A stretch of DNA of 64,000 nucleotides from a virus: positions 79,446 through 143,445 of the IMG/VR virus record IMGVR_UViG_3300034108_001154; one strand, 5' to 3'. Each line of letters starts with the position of its first letter. Positions within the stretch are counted from its first letter, which is position 1. Position numbers and translations under genes: made by a program. The notes beneath the pieces are model-generated. The model ran no database searches, had not been told where the DNA came from, and saw nothing but the letters and a program-made list of their open reading frames with translations. This document shows, one piece after another, positions 38,252 to 62,552 of this stretch.

Positions 38252-38276
38252 GAAAATCGTAAGATTTTTAAGAAAA
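38241..38276 (+). repeat. 16-bp direct repeat, period 20
   Basis: AAGATTTTTAAGAAAA occurs at 38241 and again at 38261, across the stop codon of the small gene and just upstream of a promoter. Confidence 0.7.
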
Positions 38277-38278
38277 CC

Positions 38279-38310
38279 CTTGTTTATATCAAATATTATT
38301 CGTATATTAG
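38279..38310 (+). promoter_or_regulatory. Bacteroidota-type promoter, TATATTAG variant
   Basis: CTTG at 38279-38282, 20-nt spacer, TATATTAG at 38303-38310. The spacer and leader (ACAGGTAATTGAGAGAG) are nearly identical to the promoter at 41066. Confidence 0.72.
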
Positions 38311-38349
38311 ACAGGTAATTGAGAGAGTAATTAATCAAACCCCTAATAT

Positions 38350-38490
38350 ATGAAACCAAAAAACACCCTTCCAACCCACAGACGATTGTTAATCGAGTCG
38401 ATGGAACTACTTTTTAGTGGTAAAAAAACCAAAGCTAAAAAGACACTAAAACAAGCCAAATTAGAGATTGATAAATTTTATCAAAAATAA
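38350..38490 (+). CDS. Small basic hypothetical protein
   Basis: 46 residues, starting MKPKNTLPTHRRLLIESMEL and ending in a Lys-rich helix (AKKTLKQAKLEIDKFYQK). It follows a promoter and the conserved AAACCCCTAA leader. Confidence 0.55.
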   Translation: MKPKNTLPTHRRLLIESMELLFSGKKTKAKKTLKQAKLEIDKFYQK

Positions 38491-38501
38491 CTTCAATTTT
38501 A

Positions 38502-38533
38502 TTTGGATATCTCAGGTATTTGTCGTATATTTG
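38502..38533 (+). promoter_or_regulatory. Bacteroidota-type promoter
   Basis: TTTG at 38502-38505, 20-nt spacer, TATATTTG at 38526-38533, then the conserved AAGAGATAAATTAA...AAAACCCTAAAA leader before 38575. Confidence 0.8.
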
Positions 38534-38574
38534 AGTATAAGATTAAGAGATAAATTAATTAAAACCCTAAAAAT

Positions 38575-40692
38575 ATGAGTAAATTTAAAAAGTACGGAAA
38601 TTCTTCTTATTGGTTAAAGGACTGGGAAGATGATGACATCATTGTTAATCAAATGAATGATGTGGAACGTAAATCACATGACCTTTACAAATTAGCCGCT
38701 TCTAAACGAGCTATCTCCAACTTCGTTAATATCGTTACCAACGATTCAATTCCTGTTAAATTTAGTACACGTGGTGATTCCTATACCGATGGTAAGACTG
38801 TGGTAATTGGTTCACAAATCGTAGACCCTAAGGATTTTGATGTGGCTGTTGGATTAGCATTGCACGAAGGTTCTCACATTAAACTTTCAGATTTTAAAAC
38901 ATTAGGTGATATTTACAATTTGGTTCCATCTCATATTAAAGATGGGGCAATCAAAAAAGGTATTACTAATCCAATTTCAACTATCAAAGATATTTGGAAT
39001 GTGGTTGAGGACCGTAGAATTGATTACTACGTTTTTACCTCCGCTCCGGGTTATAGAGATTACTATCGTTCAATGTACGATAAATACTTTAATGACCCAT
39101 TAATTGATAAGGGATTAACTTCAGATGAATATACTGAATCAACAATTGATTCTTATATGTTCCGAATCATTAACATTCACAACAAAAATACAAACCTTAA
39201 CGCTTTACCGGGTTTCACCGAAATCTATAAAACAATTGGTTTAGGTACTATTAACCGATTGAAATCTACCTTAGATACATTTAATGTGGCTATGGAAGTT
39301 TTTCAAATTATTCTAAATAACTTACCATCATTATCTGATGGTGAAGGTGAGGGTACTGGTGGACAGGGTGATTCTGAAGAAAATCAAAATCAAAATGGAA
39401 ATGGTAATGGTAGTTCAAATGAATCACGTGAAATGAGTGATTCTGAATTTGATGATTTAATGGATTCATTGGATGGTTCATCTCCAATGACGGGTGATAT
39501 GGATAGTAAACCAACTGGTGGTTCTTCTATGGAAATTGAAATGCCTGAAGGTGTTGAGCGTGGTGAAGCAACTGAATCAACTGAAGGTGGTAAGGAATCA
39601 AATAAATTAACTCTTAGTGATAACCAAAAAAACCTCCTTAAAAAGAAAATTCAAAAGCAGAAAGAGTTTATGAGAGGTGAAATTCGTAAAAAATCTATCA
39701 CTCGAACTGAAGCAAATAATGTTAACGCAATTGAGGAAAGTGGTTCAGAAATTACTTCAGTTGGTGCTGGTGTTAATGATGGTTGGGGTAACTCTCGAAA
39801 GGGTACAACTTGTATAGTAGTTAAGAAACTTACCAAATCATTATTTGAAAATCAAATGTTCCCAATGACTGATAACAATTGGTACAAACCTGAAGAGACT
39901 GGATTGATTAAAATGCATTATGAGACTGAAGTTCAAAATGGAATTCGAATTGGAACTATATTAGGAAAGAAACTTCAGGTTAGAGGTGAGGACCGTTCTA
40001 CGGTGTTCAATCGCCAAAAGAATGGTAGTATTGATAAACGAATGATTTCATCATTAGGATTTGGTAATGAAAATGTGTTCCAATATATGGAAACCGATTC
40101 TTACAAAAAAGCTAACCTACATATCTCAATTGATGCTAGTGGTTCAATGGGTGGTTCTAAATGGGTTAATACCTTAACCAATGTGGTTGCACTTTGTAAA
40201 GCAGTTGATATGATTCAAAACCTATCAATTCAGGTTTCATTCAGAACTACACATGGTAATTCACCATATGTGGTTATGGCTTACGATTCTCGTATTGATA
40301 AGTTCTCAAAGGTAAAACAAATGTTTCCGGCACTTAGAGCTGGTGGTACTACTCCTGAGGGATTATGTTTTGAGGCAATTATGAAGAATTTCTTAGGTTC
40401 TAATAACGATATGGATTCTTACTTCCTAAACATCTCAGATGGTGAACCTTACTTTGAAGGTGGTTCTTTCCGATATAGTGGTGAACCGGCATTCGAACAC
40501 ACTCGTAAAATGGTTAAACAAATCGAAGGAATGGGAATTAAAACTCTTTCTTACTTTGTAGATGAGTGGTCAAATACAACCGAACCATCTCGAGGATTTA
40601 AGAAGATGTATGGTAAGGGAGCTAAGAAAATCGATGTAACAAATGTGGCTCAAATAACTAAAACAATAAATGAGTTGTTCTTAACAAAATAA
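38575..40692 (+). CDS. VWA-domain protein with HExxH motif (CobT-like)
   Basis: 705 residues. The N-terminal half has ALHEGSHIKLSDF (HEGSH at 97-101), a metallopeptidase-like motif. The middle (about 250-370) is acidic and low-complexity, rich in Gly, Ser, Asn, Glu. The C-terminal VWA domain has the MIDAS motif DASGSMG (520-526) with later T (GGTTPEG) and D (NISDGEPYF) positions. This matches CobT-type partners of MoxR/CobS AAA+ ATPases, and such an ATPase is encoded 450 bases downstream. Known pairs remodel or insert metal into protein targets; the phage target is unknown. Confidence 0.85.
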   Translation: MSKFKKYGNSSYWLKDWEDDDIIVNQMNDVERKSHDLYKLAASKRAISNFVNIVTNDSIPVKFSTRGDSYTDGKTVVIGSQIVDPKDFDVAVGLALHEGSHIKLSDFKTLGDIYNLVPSHIKDGAIKKGITNPISTIKDIWNVVEDRRIDYYVFTSAPGYRDYYRSMYDKYFNDPLIDKGLTSDEYTESTIDSYMFRIINIHNKNTNLNALPGFTEIYKTIGLGTINRLKSTLDTFNVAMEVFQIILNNLPSLSDGEGEGTGGQGDSEENQNQNGNGNGSSNESREMSDSEFDDLMDSLDGSSPMTGDMDSKPTGGSSMEIEMPEGVERGEATESTEGGKESNKLTLSDNQKNLLKKKIQKQKEFMRGEIRKKSITRTEANNVNAIEESGSEITSVGAGVNDGWGNSRKGTTCIVVKKLTKSLFENQMFPMTDNNWYKPEETGLIKMHYETEVQNGIRIGTILGKKLQVRGEDRSTVFNRQKNGSIDKRMISSLGFGNENVFQYMETDSYKKANLHISIDASGSMGGSKWVNTLTNVVALCKAVDMIQNLSIQVSFRTTHGNSPYVVMAYDSRIDKFSKVKQMFPALRAGGTTPEGLCFEAIMKNFLGSNNDMDSYFLNISDGEPYFEGGSFRYSGEPAFEHTRKMVKQIEGMGIKTLSYFVDEWSNTTEPSRGFKKMYGKGAKKIDVTNVAQITKTINELFLTK

Positions 40693-40730
40693 TTCAAATT
40701 GTTAATAACTTTATTGAAAATAATTAGAAA

Positions 40731-40758
40731 AAGGCTTGTTTATCTCAAGTCTTTTTTG
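40731..40758 (+). terminator. Intrinsic terminator overlapping a promoter
   Basis: AAGGCTTG (40731-40738) pairs with CAAGTCTT (40746-40753) with one G-T wobble, loop of 7, then T6. It lies inside the spacer of the next promoter. Confidence 0.72.
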
Positions 40759-40766
40759 TATATTTG
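40735..40766 (+). promoter_or_regulatory. Bacteroidota-type promoter overlapping a terminator
   Basis: CTTG at 40735-40738, 20-nt spacer, TATATTTG at 40759-40766, with the GAGTATAAGATTGATAGATAG leader variant and ACCCCTAAA before 40815. Confidence 0.78.
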
Positions 40767-40814
40767 AGTATAAGATTGATAGATAGATTAAATCACTTAA
40801 AAAACCCCTAAATT

Positions 40815-41039
40815 ATGGCTAAAAGTAAAAAAACGATTGAAGTTAGTACTATGTTGGATTGGGCTAATGAACAACTAAAACGAACCGATGAGTTCGCTAC
40901 AGTGGCATTTAAGGCTGGCATTGCCACCACCATTGAAAGAATCCTATTCAATACCAATAATTACAAAGGATTTGGGTTTATAGACAACGCAGATTCGGAT
41001 ACTGGTACATTAGGTTATTATAGTCGATTTTATTATTAA
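40815..41039 (+). CDS. Hypothetical phage protein
   Basis: 74 residues. EVSTMLDWANEQLKRTDEFA and NTNNYKGFGFIDN then GYYSRFYY; I recall this wording from other phage small proteins but know no function. It lies between the VWA and AAA+ genes with its own promoter. Confidence 0.65.
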   Translation: MAKSKKTIEVSTMLDWANEQLKRTDEFATVAFKAGIATTIERILFNTNNYKGFGFIDNADSDTGTLGYYSRFYY

Positions 41040-41065
41040 AAAAAGCAAAAATAATTGGCAAAAAG

Positions 41066-41097
41066 CTTGTTTATATCAGAAATTGTTCGTATATTAG
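41066..41097 (+). promoter_or_regulatory. Bacteroidota-type promoter, TATATTAG variant
   Basis: CTTG at 41066-41069, 20-nt spacer, TATATTAG at 41090-41097; near-copy of the promoter at 38279 including the downstream leader. Confidence 0.75.
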
Positions 41098-41144
41098 ACA
41101 GGTAATTGAGAGAGTAATTAATTAAAACCCTAAAATAAATAAAA

Positions 41145-42353
41145 ATGAAAGATTTAAAAATTGGATTCGTAGGAAATGAGGTTTACAAAGTAGAAGCTTT
41201 TGGTAACTCATTTAAGTTAATTGACACTAAAGGTCAAAAAGTTGGTACAATGGGTATCGGAACCGGTACTCGTAAAGATGCATTTGAGCAGGGATTGGCT
41301 CTTCAGGCATTCGTTCAAAAGAATGGTAAGAAGGTTTTCCGAAAAGTGGGAATGGAAGTTTATAATAACTTAGTTTCCCCAATGAATACCGATAATGGTG
41401 GTGTTCAATTTGAAGATAAAGGTGACCATAACGCAATCAAAGATTTCATTCACAATAGTTCAATTGATTTGAAACCAATTGAATTGGTGATGACACCTCT
41501 AAAGTGGAAATACTTAGTTCGTTCAGCTGTTAGAGCTAAAAACATTATGATGACTGGACCTGCTGGTTGTGGTAAAACAATGGCAGCTAAAGCATTGGTT
41601 AAAGCACTTGACCGACCTGATTTCTACTTCAACTTAGGAGCAACGCAAGACCCTCGTGCTACTTTGATTGGTAATACTCACTTTGATAAAAACAAAGGAA
41701 CTTTCTTCGCTGAATCGGCATTCGTTAAAGCAATTAAAACTCCAAACGCTGTGATTCTATTAGATGAGTTGAGTAGAGCTCACCCTGATGCTTGGAACAT
41801 TTTGATGACCGTTTTAGATGGTGGACAACGTTACTTACGTTTGGATGAGGCTGAAGGTTCACCAATTGTTAAAGTGGCTGAAGGTGTTACCTTTATCGCT
41901 ACCGCTAACATAGGTTCTGAATATACTTCGACTAGGGTAATCGATAGGGCTATCTTAGACCGTTTCGTAACTATCGAAATGGATGTTCTAAATGATGAGC
42001 AGGAATTTGGATTGTTAAAGTTTATGTTCCCTGAGGTTAATGATTATGATTTGAAAGCAATCGCTGAAATCGCTCACCACACTCGAACTCAATCGATGAG
42101 TGATTCTGGTAAAGTTACCGCTATGGTATCGACGAGAGCTAGTGTTGAAATGGCTGGATTAATTTATGATGGATTCGATTTATTCGAATCAGCTGAAATT
42201 TCAATCTTCCCATTCTTCTCTAATGATGGTGGTGTAGATTCTGAAAGAACTTATGTGAAACAACTGGTTCAAAAATATGTTAAAGATACATCAGCAGAAG
42301 CTCTTTTTACCGAACAAAAAGAAGAGTTAGTAGATGAAATCCCAATGTTCTAA
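41145..42353 (+). CDS. MoxR/CobS-like AAA+ ATPase
   Basis: 402 residues. Walker A is GPAGCGKTMAAKAL (about 137-150), Walker B is VILLDELSRAHPDAWN, sensor 1 FIATANIGSEYTST, and the arginine-rich ILDRF follows. CobS-type ATPases are common in T4-like marine phages. N-terminal about 95 residues form a separate small domain (GNEVYKVEAFGNSFKLIDTK). It should work with the VWA protein at 38575 as a chelatase-like or remodelling pair. Promoters of the two genes share sequence, implying joint control. Confidence 0.9.
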   Translation: MKDLKIGFVGNEVYKVEAFGNSFKLIDTKGQKVGTMGIGTGTRKDAFEQGLALQAFVQKNGKKVFRKVGMEVYNNLVSPMNTDNGGVQFEDKGDHNAIKDFIHNSSIDLKPIELVMTPLKWKYLVRSAVRAKNIMMTGPAGCGKTMAAKALVKALDRPDFYFNLGATQDPRATLIGNTHFDKNKGTFFAESAFVKAIKTPNAVILLDELSRAHPDAWNILMTVLDGGQRYLRLDEAEGSPIVKVAEGVTFIATANIGSEYTSTRVIDRAILDRFVTIEMDVLNDEQEFGLLKFMFPEVNDYDLKAIAEIAHHTRTQSMSDSGKVTAMVSTRASVEMAGLIYDGFDLFESAEISIFPFFSNDGGVDSERTYVKQLVQKYVKDTSAEALFTEQKEELVDEIPMF

Positions 42354-52408: not shown

Positions 52409-52953
52409 GTAAAATAGTAAATCTATTTGGAGGACCTGGTATTGGGAAATCATCCATTGCCAATGGTCTTACATATAAGTTAAAAAAGAAACACATAAGT
52501 TGTGATAATCCATATGAGTTTCCAAAAGTATTGGCATGGGATGAGAATCATTCTGCTATCAAAGACCAATTGTATGTACTTGCAAACCAACATAGGGGAA
52601 TTGTTAAGAGTTATGGGAAGGTTGACTATATTATATTGGATTCACCAATTGTATTATCATTGGTATATAAATCAGTATATAAAGGTACTGAGTACCCAGC
52701 AACGCTGTATGGTGATTCATTTGATAAAATGGTGTTAGACATTCATAATCAATATGATACGCTTAATATCGTTCTAAAACGTTCTGAGGGTGGGTATAAT
52801 GAAAAGGAAAGGTACCAATCATTGAATGAATCCAAAATGCTGGATTTGGAGATAGAAAATACCCTAATTAAACACCATATTCCATTTATTTATGTAGATG
52901 TTAACGATGATACTTTAAAAAACATACTAAAATATTTGGATATTCCAAATTAA
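52405..52953 (+). CDS. P-loop nucleotide kinase-like protein
   Basis: 182 residues. Walker A is FGGPGIGKSSIANGL; DYIILDSPIVLSLVY is a Walker B-like DSP; RSEGGYNEKERYQSL matches the lid region of small kinases. Resembles deoxynucleoside or NadR-type kinase folds used by phages for nucleotide metabolism. Substrate not identifiable. Confidence 0.75.
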   Translation: MSKIVNLFGGPGIGKSSIANGLTYKLKKKHISCDNPYEFPKVLAWDENHSAIKDQLYVLANQHRGIVKSYGKVDYIILDSPIVLSLVYKSVYKGTEYPATLYGDSFDKMVLDIHNQYDTLNIVLKRSEGGYNEKERYQSLNESKMLDLEIENTLIKHHIPFIYVDVNDDTLKNILKYLDIPN

Positions 52954-52966
52954 TTTCGTATATTTG
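52935..52966 (+). promoter_or_regulatory. Bacteroidota-type promoter with hairpin spacer
   Basis: TTTG at 52935-52938, 20-nt spacer, TATATTTG at 52959-52966. ATTTGG and CCAAAT form a 6-bp hairpin around the end of the kinase gene. No other promoter was seen until 59384, so it may serve all genes from 52996 to 59396. Confidence 0.78.
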
Positions 52967-53559: not shown

Positions 53560-53970
53560 ATGAAAAAAAGAATTTACTTAGATGATGTAAGAACTCCAGT
53601 AGATAAAGAATCTTGGGTAGTTGTTAGAAACTATGAACAATTTATTGATACAGTTACTTACATTGGATTGGAAAATATTGACTTGATTTCATTGGACCAC
53701 GATTTAGGAGATACTGCAATGGCAGAGTGGCATAAGAATGTATATCACAATTATGAATTAAACTATGATAATATTAAGGAAAAGACTGGAATGGATTGCA
53801 CTAAATGGTTGGTTAATCAATGGTTGGACGGACATGCTGTTGTTGATGTTGTAATACATTCAGCAAACGCAATTGGTTCAGCAAATATGATGGGATACAT
53901 TAACAATTATAGACACGTTAGTAGATTACCACAAAATTGTGTAAGAGTACAAATAGAACATACAGTATAA
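53560..53970 (+). CDS. Cyclic-phosphate processing receiver (cREC) domain protein
   Basis: 136 residues. RIYLDDVRTPVD, LISLDHDLGD and VVIHSANAIGSANM are the three blocks of the cREC family: acidic residues at the end of strand 1, DHDLG after strand 3, and HSxN after strand 4. The family is predicted, from gene context, to process cyclic phosphate ends of nucleic acids such as RNA. It could deal with host tRNA cleavage or RNA repair; no RNA ligase was seen nearby. Confidence 0.85.
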   Translation: MKKRIYLDDVRTPVDKESWVVVRNYEQFIDTVTYIGLENIDLISLDHDLGDTAMAEWHKNVYHNYELNYDNIKEKTGMDCTKWLVNQWLDGHAVVDVVIHSANAIGSANMMGYINNYRHVSRLPQNCVRVQIEHTV

Positions 53971-57150: not shown

Positions 57151-57297
57151 ATGATTATATTTAAAATTATTGGAATTTGTACGATAGTTAATTTTTTATT
57201 TATCGCTTACCATATGTGGAAAGCACCTGAGATGGATGAACAAACGGGTAGAATTATAAAAGAAGGTAAAAAACTATCCGATATTTTTAAAAAATAA
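57151..57297 (+). CDS. Small single-pass membrane protein
   Basis: 48 residues. MIIFKIIGICTIVNFLFIAY is a membrane helix, followed by a polar tail MDEQTGRIIKEGKKLSDIFK. Clear leader and no competing frame. Function unknown. Confidence 0.55.
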   Translation: MIIFKIIGICTIVNFLFIAYHMWKAPEMDEQTGRIIKEGKKLSDIFKK

Positions 57298-57762: not shown

Positions 57763-57933
57763 ATGAGAAAATTTTATAGAAGTAGTAAGAACAAATTCCT
57801 AAGTGGTATTTGTGGTGGTTTGGGTTACCACACTAAAGTAGACCCAATTTTATGGAGAGCGTTATTAGTTGTCTTAGGACCGGCAGCAGTAATACCATAT
57901 ATAGTTTTAACATTTTTAACTGAAGATAAATAA
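57763..57933 (+). CDS. PspC-domain membrane peptide
   Basis: 56 residues. FYRSSKNKFLSGICGGLGYH, then TKVDPILWRALLVVLGPAAV follows the PspC domain ('l.Rs..d..iaGVcgGla.yf.vDp.lvRl.fvl'), with a membrane helix to the end. Bacterial PspC proteins sense or relieve inner-membrane stress. A phage copy might buffer membrane damage or interfere with the host envelope response. It directly precedes the heme oxygenase gene. Confidence 0.85.
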   Translation: MRKFYRSSKNKFLSGICGGLGYHTKVDPILWRALLVVLGPAAVIPYIVLTFLTEDK

Positions 57934-57934
57934 T

Positions 57935-58447
57935 ATGTTACCTTTAAAAGAAGCAACTGCTGAAAAGCACAAATTGGCTGAAAGAATGCCATTCAACGGA
58001 TTGATGTTTAGTGGTAGATTAACCGCATCTCAATATGGTGAGTATCTTAAATCACAATTAGCAATCTTTTCAACATTGGAAAACAACTTTGAATTTCCAA
58101 ATGAGGGATTAAAGAGAGTATCAGCTGTAAGTGAGGATTTGGGATACTTAGGTGTATCAGATGTTTCACCTGATTCAGCAACCGAATCATATATTCAATA
58201 TCTAAAAGGATTAACACAAGATGAGGCAAATGCTCATATCTATCTTAACTACTTAGCAATTATGTTTGGTGGACAGATGATGAAAGAGAAAACACCCGGT
58301 CAAGGTAAAATGTATGATTTTGAAAATATGATGGAATGTGCTGGTTCAATCAGAGCTATTCAAAAAGATGAATGGGCAGATGAGGTAAATGCAGGATTTG
58401 ATTTTATGATTGAAATCTTTAAAGAATTAGAAAAATGTACGATTTAG
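57935..58447 (+). CDS. ho: Heme oxygenase
   Basis: 170 residues. LKEATAEKHKLAERMPF carries the proximal heme ligand H12, and YLNYLAIMFGGQMMKEKTPG is the Gly-rich distal helix (family pattern 'Y...l.GGq.l'). The enzyme opens heme to biliverdin, Fe2+ and CO using ferredoxin or other electrons. It is shorter than cellular HO1 (about 235) but keeps the core. Its 3' end overlaps the bilin reductase gene by 13 bases, the same order as ho-pebS/pcyX cassettes of oceanic phages. It starts one base after the PspC stop. Confidence 0.88.
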   Translation: MLPLKEATAEKHKLAERMPFNGLMFSGRLTASQYGEYLKSQLAIFSTLENNFEFPNEGLKRVSAVSEDLGYLGVSDVSPDSATESYIQYLKGLTQDEANAHIYLNYLAIMFGGQMMKEKTPGQGKMYDFENMMECAGSIRAIQKDEWADEVNAGFDFMIEIFKELEKCTI

Positions 58448-59076
58448 TAGAACGTATAACATATCATAGTGAGAAGTTTAAAAACCTCATCGAATCAATC
58501 GATGGGGTTAAAGAACTCCATACTGATGATTATGGTTGGGAGAACTACCGATACGAATCACCAATTTTCAGATTAGCTCACGTAGAGAGATACTTTGTAG
58601 GTTCACTTGCAGTTTGTCACATCACTTGTTTCCCACATAAGAACTCAAAAGCACCAATCTTTGGATTTGATGTAGTTGGTGGTACTAATAGTGGAAAGAT
58701 AAGTGGAGCATTTATAGATTGTTCCCCAGTCCTTTATGATGAAGATTGGCATAATACTGAATGGAACACCGATAGAAAGTTACCTTATTGGGCATCGGTA
58801 TTTTCGGAACAATTCATAGCAGTAAGACCTACTGAAGATGAATATGAGAAAATATTTGAAACTGCTTGGGGGGTATTTCAACGATATATTGAACAATTAA
58901 GAAGTGAAGTAGATATTACATCCGATTCAAATGAGTTGAGAATTATTATAGAAAACCAAAACATATATTGTAGACACCAAGCTGATAATCCTCGTACATT
59001 TGGTGCATTGAAAACGGAAATTGGAGAAGAGAGGGCTACCTACTTTATGCAAAAAGTACTATTTCCAGAAATATAA
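58435..59076 (+). CDS. Ferredoxin-dependent bilin reductase (PcyA/PebS/PcyX family)
   Basis: 213 residues. YESPIFRLAHVERYFVGSLA, VCHITCFPHKNSKAPIFGFD and VVGGTNSGKISGAFIDCSPV follow the FDBR core ('sp.fR..h.E......vlH.v.FP.p....PiFG.DiV.g...vsaai.DlSPv'). H62 and D79 align with the catalytic His and Asp of PcyA. RKLPYWASVFSEQFIAVRPT and YCRHQADNPRT then MQKVLFPE match the C-terminal blocks. It should reduce biliverdin to a phytobilin; whether it is a two- or four-electron enzyme cannot be told. Cotranslated with heme oxygenase. Confidence 0.88.
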   Translation: MYDLVERITYHSEKFKNLIESIDGVKELHTDDYGWENYRYESPIFRLAHVERYFVGSLAVCHITCFPHKNSKAPIFGFDVVGGTNSGKISGAFIDCSPVLYDEDWHNTEWNTDRKLPYWASVFSEQFIAVRPTEDEYEKIFETAWGVFQRYIEQLRSEVDITSDSNELRIIIENQNIYCRHQADNPRTFGALKTEIGEERATYFMQKVLFPEI

Positions 59077-59081
59077 AAATA

Positions 59082-59396
59082 TTGAAAACCAAAAAACTAT
59101 ATCTTAACAACGATTCCATATTAAAATGGGTAGAATTAAATAGGGATACAATCAACCAATTATTGTATGAGAATGTATTTGATTTCGCAAAATCTGACAA
59201 AATGTCATTTTCAATCATGCGAATCTACTCATTTGATGACAAAGATTCAAATGGTATGGATATTGTAACTAATCTATTGATTACAAAAGAAGAGTTGTAT
59301 GATACAGTTGAAAAATTGTTAAAGGCATATGAGGGTGATGAATATTACGAAAGATGTGCAGAATTACTAAAACTTAAAAATAGTTTGGTAGATTAA
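59082..59396 (+). CDS. Hypothetical protein with TTG start
   Basis: 104 residues. TTG at 59082, 5 bases after the bilin reductase stop, is the best start. LYLNNDSILKWVELNRDTIN then LLITKEELYDTVEKLLKAYE; helical, no known motif. A role linked to bilins cannot be inferred from the sequence. Confidence 0.6.
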   Translation: MKTKKLYLNNDSILKWVELNRDTINQLLYENVFDFAKSDKMSFSIMRIYSFDDKDSNGMDIVTNLLITKEELYDTVEKLLKAYEGDEYYERCAELLKLKNSLVD

Positions 59397-59415
59397 AATA
59401 TTTTTCGTATATTTG
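59384..59415 (+). promoter_or_regulatory. Bacteroidota-type promoter for the chaperonin unit
   Basis: TTTG at 59384-59387, 20-nt spacer, TATATTTG at 59408-59415. It drives 59438, groES and groEL up to the terminator at 61660. Confidence 0.8.
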
Positions 59416-61688: not shown

Positions 61689-61742
61689 GTGCCATTGATT
61701 ATCAACACGTTATAAAAAAGTTGAAAAATAATTGGCAAAAGG

Positions 61743-61774
61743 CTTGTTTATATCAGGAATTATTCGTAGGTTTA
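61743..61774 (+). promoter_or_regulatory. Bacteroidota-type promoter, TAGGTTTA variant
   Basis: CTTG at 61743-61746, 20-nt spacer, TAGGTTTA at 61767-61774. Nearly identical to the promoter at 62172 from CTTGTTTATATCAGGAATTA through the AAACCCCTAAAA leader. Confidence 0.65.
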
Positions 61775-61818
61775 CATAGTAATAAGAGATGATAATTAAA
61801 CCCCTAAAATTAAAAATT

Positions 61819-62160
61819 ATGAACAAAGAGAAATTTAACGAAGTATTTGAGAAAAAAGTTGGCTATGATTCAGAGAACAAAAAGTTCTTAATTAGGGTAT
61901 ATCCATCCCTTATCAAAGTAATTAATAATAATCCAAAACCAAAGTGGGTGGATGTTATTGAGGATATGTTAGGATATAAGAGTAGCGGATATTATTCATC
62001 AATCCGTAGATGTTTAAAAGAGATTGATGTATGTACCTATGATAAAAGTGTAGGTCATTTTGTTAAAGGTTCAAATTGGGATAGGTTCGTATCTAATGAA
62101 AATTGGAATTGGTTTATTTGTAAAACAGGTAGTTGTGAACGTTCATTTGTTAAAAAATAA
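61819..62160 (+). CDS. Hypothetical protein
   Basis: 113 residues from the ATG at 61819, placed after the conserved AAACCCCTAAAA leader; an in-frame ATG at 61789 lies inside the leader. SENKKFLIRVYPSLIKVINN then SSGYYSSIRRCLKEIDVCTY. Unrecognised. Confidence 0.6.
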   Translation: MNKEKFNEVFEKKVGYDSENKKFLIRVYPSLIKVINNNPKPKWVDVIEDMLGYKSSGYYSSIRRCLKEIDVCTYDKSVGHFVKGSNWDRFVSNENWNWFICKTGSCERSFVKK

Positions 62161-62171
62161 TTACGAAATGT

Positions 62172-62203
62172 CTTGTTTATATCAGGAATTATTCGTATGT
62201 TTA
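62172..62203 (+). promoter_or_regulatory. Bacteroidota-type promoter, TATGTTTA variant
   Basis: CTTG at 62172-62175, 20-nt spacer, TATGTTTA at 62196-62203, followed by the same leader as the promoter at 61743. Confidence 0.68.
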
Positions 62204-62243
62204 CAGAGTAATAAGAGATAATTAAACCCCTAAAACTAATAAA

Positions 62244-62552
62244 ATGAAAACAAAATTCGAAATCTGGTTAGAAAATGTTAATACTGAGTTAGAAACTGAG
62301 TGGAACAATACCTTTACTCACAAAGCTTGGACTCCAATATTACCCAATAAAGGTAGTAAATTTATTAAAATGATGCATGGAACCACTGTTTGGGGGTTCG
62401 TATCAATGGTTGATGGTGAACACTTAGGAGCTCCAATCAAAAAAGGTGATTTAATGAAACCTGCTAGTTGGAGAGCCGCTGCTAAACATAGTAGAGGTAA
62501 TATCTTTGATGGAACTGCTAAATATGGTATGTACGGACCTAAATACCTATAA
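62244..62552 (+). CDS. Hypothetical protein
   Basis: 102 residues (KFEIWLENVNTELETEWNNT; KMMHGTTVWGFVSMVDGEHL; GNIFDGTAKYGMYGPKYL). It has a Trp/Gly-rich centre and no known motif. Confidence 0.62.
   Translation: MKTKFEIWLENVNTELETEWNNTFTHKAWTPILPNKGSKFIKMMHGTTVWGFVSMVDGEHLGAPIKKGDLMKPASWRAAAKHSRGNIFDGTAKYGMYGPKYL

Follow-up and report, generated by a model that had tools for sequence, protein, structure and literature searches.

A putative heme-to-bilin gene cassette with an aspartate-less heme oxygenase-like protein in jumbo phages with Bacteroidota host signals

Why would a phage whose host does not appear to be a cyanobacterium carry genes for turning heme into a reduced bilin? The question is raised by two overlapping genes in the final 64 kb of a 143,445-bp IMG/VR record (IMGVR_UViG_3300034108_001154); these 64,000 nucleotides are called the window below. 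A preliminary description, drawn from the sequence, had read the two genes as a heme oxygenase and a ferredoxin-dependent bilin reductase, and had taken every host clue to point to Bacteroidota. Here we analyzed the gene pair, its catalytic residues, the likely host and the possible use of the pathway.

A conserved pair of overlapping genes in a jumbo phage

The window's phage was also found in three other contigs (100% over 15.5 kb), one of which, of 270,865 bp, has both ends adjoining on G000 with an overlap of ~238 bp. This indicates a circular or circularly permuted genome and makes the virus a jumbo phage of ~270.6 kb. Its genome encodes a T4-type DNA polymerase, a sliding clamp, a CobS-like ATPase and a DNA ligase, as well as thymidylate synthase, GroES and GroEL. 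Self-similarity comparison also revealed diverged repeats of ~100 bp (75-87% identical) scattered in the genome, among them window positions 38268-38594, 40697-41150, 61720-61823 and 62149-62250.

Both of the overlapping genes originally reported were recovered on the plus strand: a heme oxygenase-like protein (HO, 170 aa) at 57935..58447 and a ferredoxin-dependent bilin reductase (FDBR, 213 aa) at 58435..59076, with a reading-frame overlap of 13 nt (58435..58447). HO matched Pfam Heme_oxygenase (PF01126; 47.8 bits against a cut-off of 23, 2e-12), and FDBR matched Fe_bilin_red (PF05996; 82.5 bits against a curated cut-off of 31, 4.5e-23) and PHROG 7278, "ferredoxin oxidoreductase"; a failure of the reductase profile at the gene starting at 58435, which the preliminary description had named as grounds for abandoning its reading, therefore did not occur. 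AlphaFold2 models drew solely on phage relatives and reached a pLDDT of 94.5 for HO, with HmuO (1iw1) as the best PDB match (Foldseek, TM 0.82) and HO-1 at a TM of about 0.8, and a pLDDT of 92.7 for FDBR, with PcyA (2g18) as the best match (Foldseek, E 1.1e-15, TM 0.85). The closest solved FDBRs by sequence were PcyX 5owg and PcyA 2g18. A chance match or a wrong frame for either gene is ruled out by these Pfam, PDB sequence and fold matches.

The two genes are adjacent and on the same strand in a phage genome, as in known phage HO-FDBR cassettes. Searches with HO or the HO alignment returned 29 and 40 viral loci, and the FDBR alignment returned 58, three of which belong to the window's own phage; the pair is present in 55 further IMG/VR contigs. 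HO lies upstream of FDBR in all 58 FDBR-found loci, and the frames overlap in the relatives too, L081 excepted. Among 38 HO-found loci, some of them near-identical, HO and FDBR were the sole families present in every one, and the next neighbour family was found near 18. In the closest pairs, dN/dS ran from about 0.08 to 0.39 in HO and from about 0.07 to 0.12 in FDBR, showing that purifying selection acts on both. Together with the universal pairing, these low ratios indicate that selection maintains HO and FDBR jointly within otherwise reshuffled surroundings. In a 251-kb relative (L081/L138), FDBR appears frame-shifted and HO is intact.

With respect to expression, a Bacteroidota-type promoter, TTTG-N19-GTATATTTG (52935..52966, plus strand), precedes the same-strand gene run containing the cassette, and we infer that it serves the cassette. 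The next promoter of this type (59384..59415, plus strand) lies downstream, ahead of the genes leading to groES/groEL. A small PspC-domain protein (57763..57933, plus strand; PF04024, 2.2e-14) ends just before the HO start codon; such a protein is near the cassette in four of the 38 loci and is not a conserved cassette member. Other phage genes near the cassette include those for a 48-aa hydrophobic protein (57151-57297), whose relatives are the commonest cassette neighbour (18 of 38 loci), and for a protein with a cREC receiver-like domain (53560-53970; PF20274, 1.4e-21).

Conserved and replaced active-site residues

We compared HO with HO-1, for which residue roles in the active site have been described (PMC5623701). 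The proximal heme ligand His25 corresponds to H12, invariant in the HO alignment, and the equivalents of Glu29, Glu62, Tyr114, His132, Tyr134, Tyr137 and Gly143/144 are aligned and retained. Four positions are substituted, namely Tyr58 (Phe45), Arg136 (Asn105), Gly139 (Ala108) and Asp140 (Ile109), so that the motif "AIMFGGQ" stands where HO-1 has "GDLSGGQ". The proximal His and the GGQ of the distal helix (residues 112-114) had thus been correctly noted at the outset, but the replacement of the catalytic Asp just before this GGQ by Ile had been missed.

The loss of this residue extends to the whole group: Asp was absent from all 58 FDBR-found loci, 52 of them having Ile or Leu at the position and the other six Met or Leu, and the Asp-less HOs make up one side of the HO tree (support 94/97). 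Since these loci were found via FDBR alone, an artefact of searching with an HO pattern is ruled out. In contrast, the HOs of pelagiphage-type PcyX cassettes, including that of Pelagibacter phage Mosig, retained Asp140 in 70 of 70 readable loci (67 by motif, three by eye). Previous studies demonstrated that HO-1 turns into a peroxidase upon the D140A change (PMC5623701) and loses much activity upon D140H (PMC7948506). Plant HOs are active without Asp140 and Arg136, with Ala and His instead and a different hydrogen-bond network (PMC7948506). The phage HO resembles plant HY1/GmHO-1 in lacking both residues and in having Ala at the Gly139 position (PMC7948506); however, the plant enzymes carry His at the Asp140 position, whereas the phage proteins carry hydrophobic Ile, Leu or Met. 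Family, fold and heme ligand make the phage protein HO-like, and its predicted catalytic site is atypical. Because the distal Asp needed by non-plant HOs is missing, conversion of heme to biliverdin cannot be taken for granted.

The reductase retains its known catalytic residues. E51, H62 and D79 align with PcyA Glu76, His88 and Asp105, which are essential to the PcyA reaction (PMC9800206), and are invariant in a 14-row alignment, bearing out the earlier assignment of H62 and D79 as catalytic. When 40 loci were checked automatically, the triad was also read, except in the frame-shifted L081 and in L064 (Asp motif unscored). FDBR fell short of the NCBIfam PcyA equivalog cut-off (95.4 versus 206 bits), and in a tree with PcyX and PcyA, as initially proposed, the window clade grouped with PcyX (99/95) and away from the PcyA of cyanobacteria and cyanophages. 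Simple acquisition of FDBR from cyanobacteria is ruled out by this tree. PcyX may nest within the window clade, which would then be paraphyletic; a constraint to a single window clade was not rejected (p-AU 0.41). Compared with cyanobacterial and cyanophage PcyA, FDBR has the same Glu/His/Asp triad and fold, with 2g18 as the best structural match, but shares only about 25% identity and belongs to a separate clade; the cyanophage PcyA copies inspected had no adjoining HO, unlike the window. PcyX converts biliverdin to phycoerythrobilin and PcyA converts it to phycocyanobilin. The PcyX-specific catalytic Asp is found in Mosig and 5owg, whereas the window clade has Glu; here PcyX Asp55, a residue taken from PMC11480375, was equated with the Glu76 position by alignment. 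The absence of this Asp has been offered as an explanation for the phycocyanobilin made by the enzyme of methanotroph phage CB_2 (PMC11480375). With the PcyA triad intact and the PcyX Asp absent, phycocyanobilin is likely the product of the window's reductase as well.

Two known phage systems are most comparable. In the marine pelagiphage Mosig (MT647606), large, T4-like and likewise without a cyanobacterial host, the hemO-pcyX pair has the same arrangement, with HO directly followed by an overlapping FDBR; identities to the window's proteins are 32.3% (HO) and 32.5% (FDBR). Mosig differs in host phylum and in the ferrochelatase and 2OG oxygenases that adjoin only its pair. CB_2, compared here by its published description, resembles the window's phage in being a freshwater phage of a non-cyanobacterial host whose reductase (vHemO/vPcyA cassette) lacks the PcyX-type Asp; unlike the window, its cassette is broken, with an alaS gene, and the proposed host is Methylocystis (PMC11480375). 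Its FDBR falls between PcyX and PcyA, and its hemO and pcyA enzymes were both demonstrated to be active (PMC11480375). Hence the occurrence of HO-FDBR genes beyond cyanophages was already known from Mosig and CB_2 (PMC11480375). The novelty appears to lie in the host phylum, in the clade to which FDBR belongs and in an HO without the distal Asp, and a search of PMC papers turned up no report of an FDBR in a Bacteroidota phage.

Host signals and missing partners

We next considered the host. Seven TTTG-N16-22-GTATATTTG sites occur in the window where 0.17 would be expected; every one lies on the coding strand, and the pattern fits the Bacteroidota -33/-7 promoter. Of the genes in this genome, 9% have a Shine-Dalgarno (SD)-like site ahead of them, compared with 5% for its relatives and 49% for PcyX-type contigs; SD sequences are absent from Bacteroidota (PMC6847099). 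A scan of GTDB (one genome per species) with the FDBR alignment gave a single match, a contig of the Bacteroidetes MAG RE-18aug17-35 (L041:5272-5732), which carries an FDBR pseudogene of the phage clade, 5'-truncated and with in-frame stops. This pseudogene shares 67% protein identity with phage L022 and 81% DNA identity with L065, and its neighbours encode FG-GAP and Ig_7/SprB proteins characteristic of Bacteroidota; at a length of just 8 kb, the contig could be a chimeric assembly. Moreover, HOs of the Asp-less clade were found in two Bacteroidota chromosomes (L233:1501-2022 and L234:1495-2010), one of them on a 3.3-Mb contig. They are perhaps derived from phages, and no FDBR was found in the L234 genome. 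As further host clues, ThyA is nearest to Flavobacterium phages, and GroEL finds its best matches over the full length in Bacteroides phages. A search for tRNA genes in G000, which might have served as another clue, found none.

A different signal came from the replication module. The DNA polymerase (50.5% identical) and several replication genes are nearest to Microcystis phage Mel-JY01 (L238, PP395634). The Mel-JY01 record names Microcystis elabens as host; the phage has Bacteroidota-type promoters between its own genes, 31% of which are preceded by SD-like sites, and in view of these promoters the stated host may deserve checking. The original claim that all host clues point to Bacteroidota thus held for the promoters, the SD sites and the MAG pseudogene, while the Mel-JY01-like replication module dissents. 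A non-cyanobacterial host, with Bacteroidota as its phylum, is supported, and the other ground named at the outset for abandoning the reading, a host mapped to a cyanobacterium, did not arise.

Partners for the pathway are rare in such hosts. None of 395 other Bacteroidota genomes contained FDBR (PF05996), and HO occurred in three of 60 MAG relatives, in one case as the Asp-less type. A phytochrome search in the predicted host, proposed at the outset, detected the PHY domain in one of 41 relatives of the MAG. In eight phage records, including the complete genome G002, we found no Fer2-type ferredoxin, PHY domain or phycobiliprotein. With no host FDBR, rare HO and no phage Fer2, both catalytic steps would most likely be new to the infected cell, with electrons supplied by host ferredoxin. 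These results agree with the earlier idea of a reduced bilin made in cells not expected to use one, although its first step, from heme to biliverdin, is questionable without the distal Asp.

Proposed pathway and alternatives

We consider it reasonably probable (about 60%) that the pair constitutes a two-enzyme heme-to-bilin cassette of Bacteroidota-infecting jumbo phages. In this pathway, HO would bind heme through His12 and open it to biliverdin with release of iron, a rebuilt distal pocket replacing the usual Asp, and FDBR would reduce the biliverdin with host-ferredoxin electrons, most likely to phycocyanobilin. Because the likely hosts lack FDBR and mostly lack HO or phytochrome, the payoff would probably lie not in light harvesting but in heme breakdown itself (iron release and heme removal), possibly aided by the reductase as it drains biliverdin from HO; what the phage gains is a matter of guesswork. 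The peroxidase behavior of HO-1 D140A and the activity loss of D140H, the missed NCBIfam PcyA cut-off and the Mel-JY01-like replication module count against this pathway. A more specific proposal, somewhat short of even odds, is that HO cleaves heme without a distal Asp or plant-type His, by a new proton delivery or to another product, and that, paired with a PcyA-like reductase from a clade of its own, it provides Bacteroidota with a route to bilins that the phylum lacks.

The HO-like protein may instead no longer be an oxygenase, serving as a carrier of heme or biliverdin, a peroxidase or a heme sponge, with FDBR using biliverdin from elsewhere. This would be in line with the clade-wide replacement of the distal Asp, Arg and Tyr of the HO-1 network alongside retained ligand and structural residues, with the peroxidase behavior of HO-1 D140A (PMC5623701), and with the two Bacteroidota chromosomes that keep an Asp-less HO, the one tested genome having no FDBR. 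However, the adjoining FDBR needs biliverdin, yet HO occurs in only three of 60 likely-host relatives, and plant HOs with Ala and His work without Asp140 and Arg136 (PMC7948506), so we regard a loss of oxygenase function as rather unlikely, although the missing Asp gives a carrier or peroxidase role real weight. Less probable still is that the cassette supplies the chromophore of a photoreceptor (phytochrome or bilin-binding globin), either the host's or the phage's, and alters light signalling during infection: in E. coli, a functional phytochrome was assembled with phycocyanobilin from CB_2 PcyA (PMC11480375) and one of the 41 MAG relatives has a PHY domain, but PHY is rare in the relatives tested, and neither it nor a phycobiliprotein was present in the eight phage records. 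Infection of cyanobacteria (e.g., Microcystis), with the cassette supplying phycobilisome pigment as proposed for cyanophages, is very improbable, as the Mel-JY01-like DNA polymerase and replication neighbours stand against Bacteroidota promoters (a type shared by Mel-JY01 itself), few SD sites, the pseudogene in a Bacteroidetes MAG, the phage affinities of ThyA and GroEL, and an FDBR on the PcyX side rather than with cyanophage PcyA.

Under the heme-to-bilin pathway, an active Asp-less HO would be a natural exception to the accepted oxygen-activation rule of non-plant HOs, available in dozens of variants. The cassette would extend phage bilin synthesis to Bacteroidota, a phylum in which the search detected no host FDBRs and few HOs occur. 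The cassette therefore isolates the question of what a phage obtains from heme breakdown where light harvesting is not an option.

Bacteroidota HOs with Asp140 were also observed (L235:1444-2037 and L236:1501-2094). They lie beside an imelysin (M75) and a di-heme oxidoreductase, a neighbourhood that suggests an iron-uptake operon.
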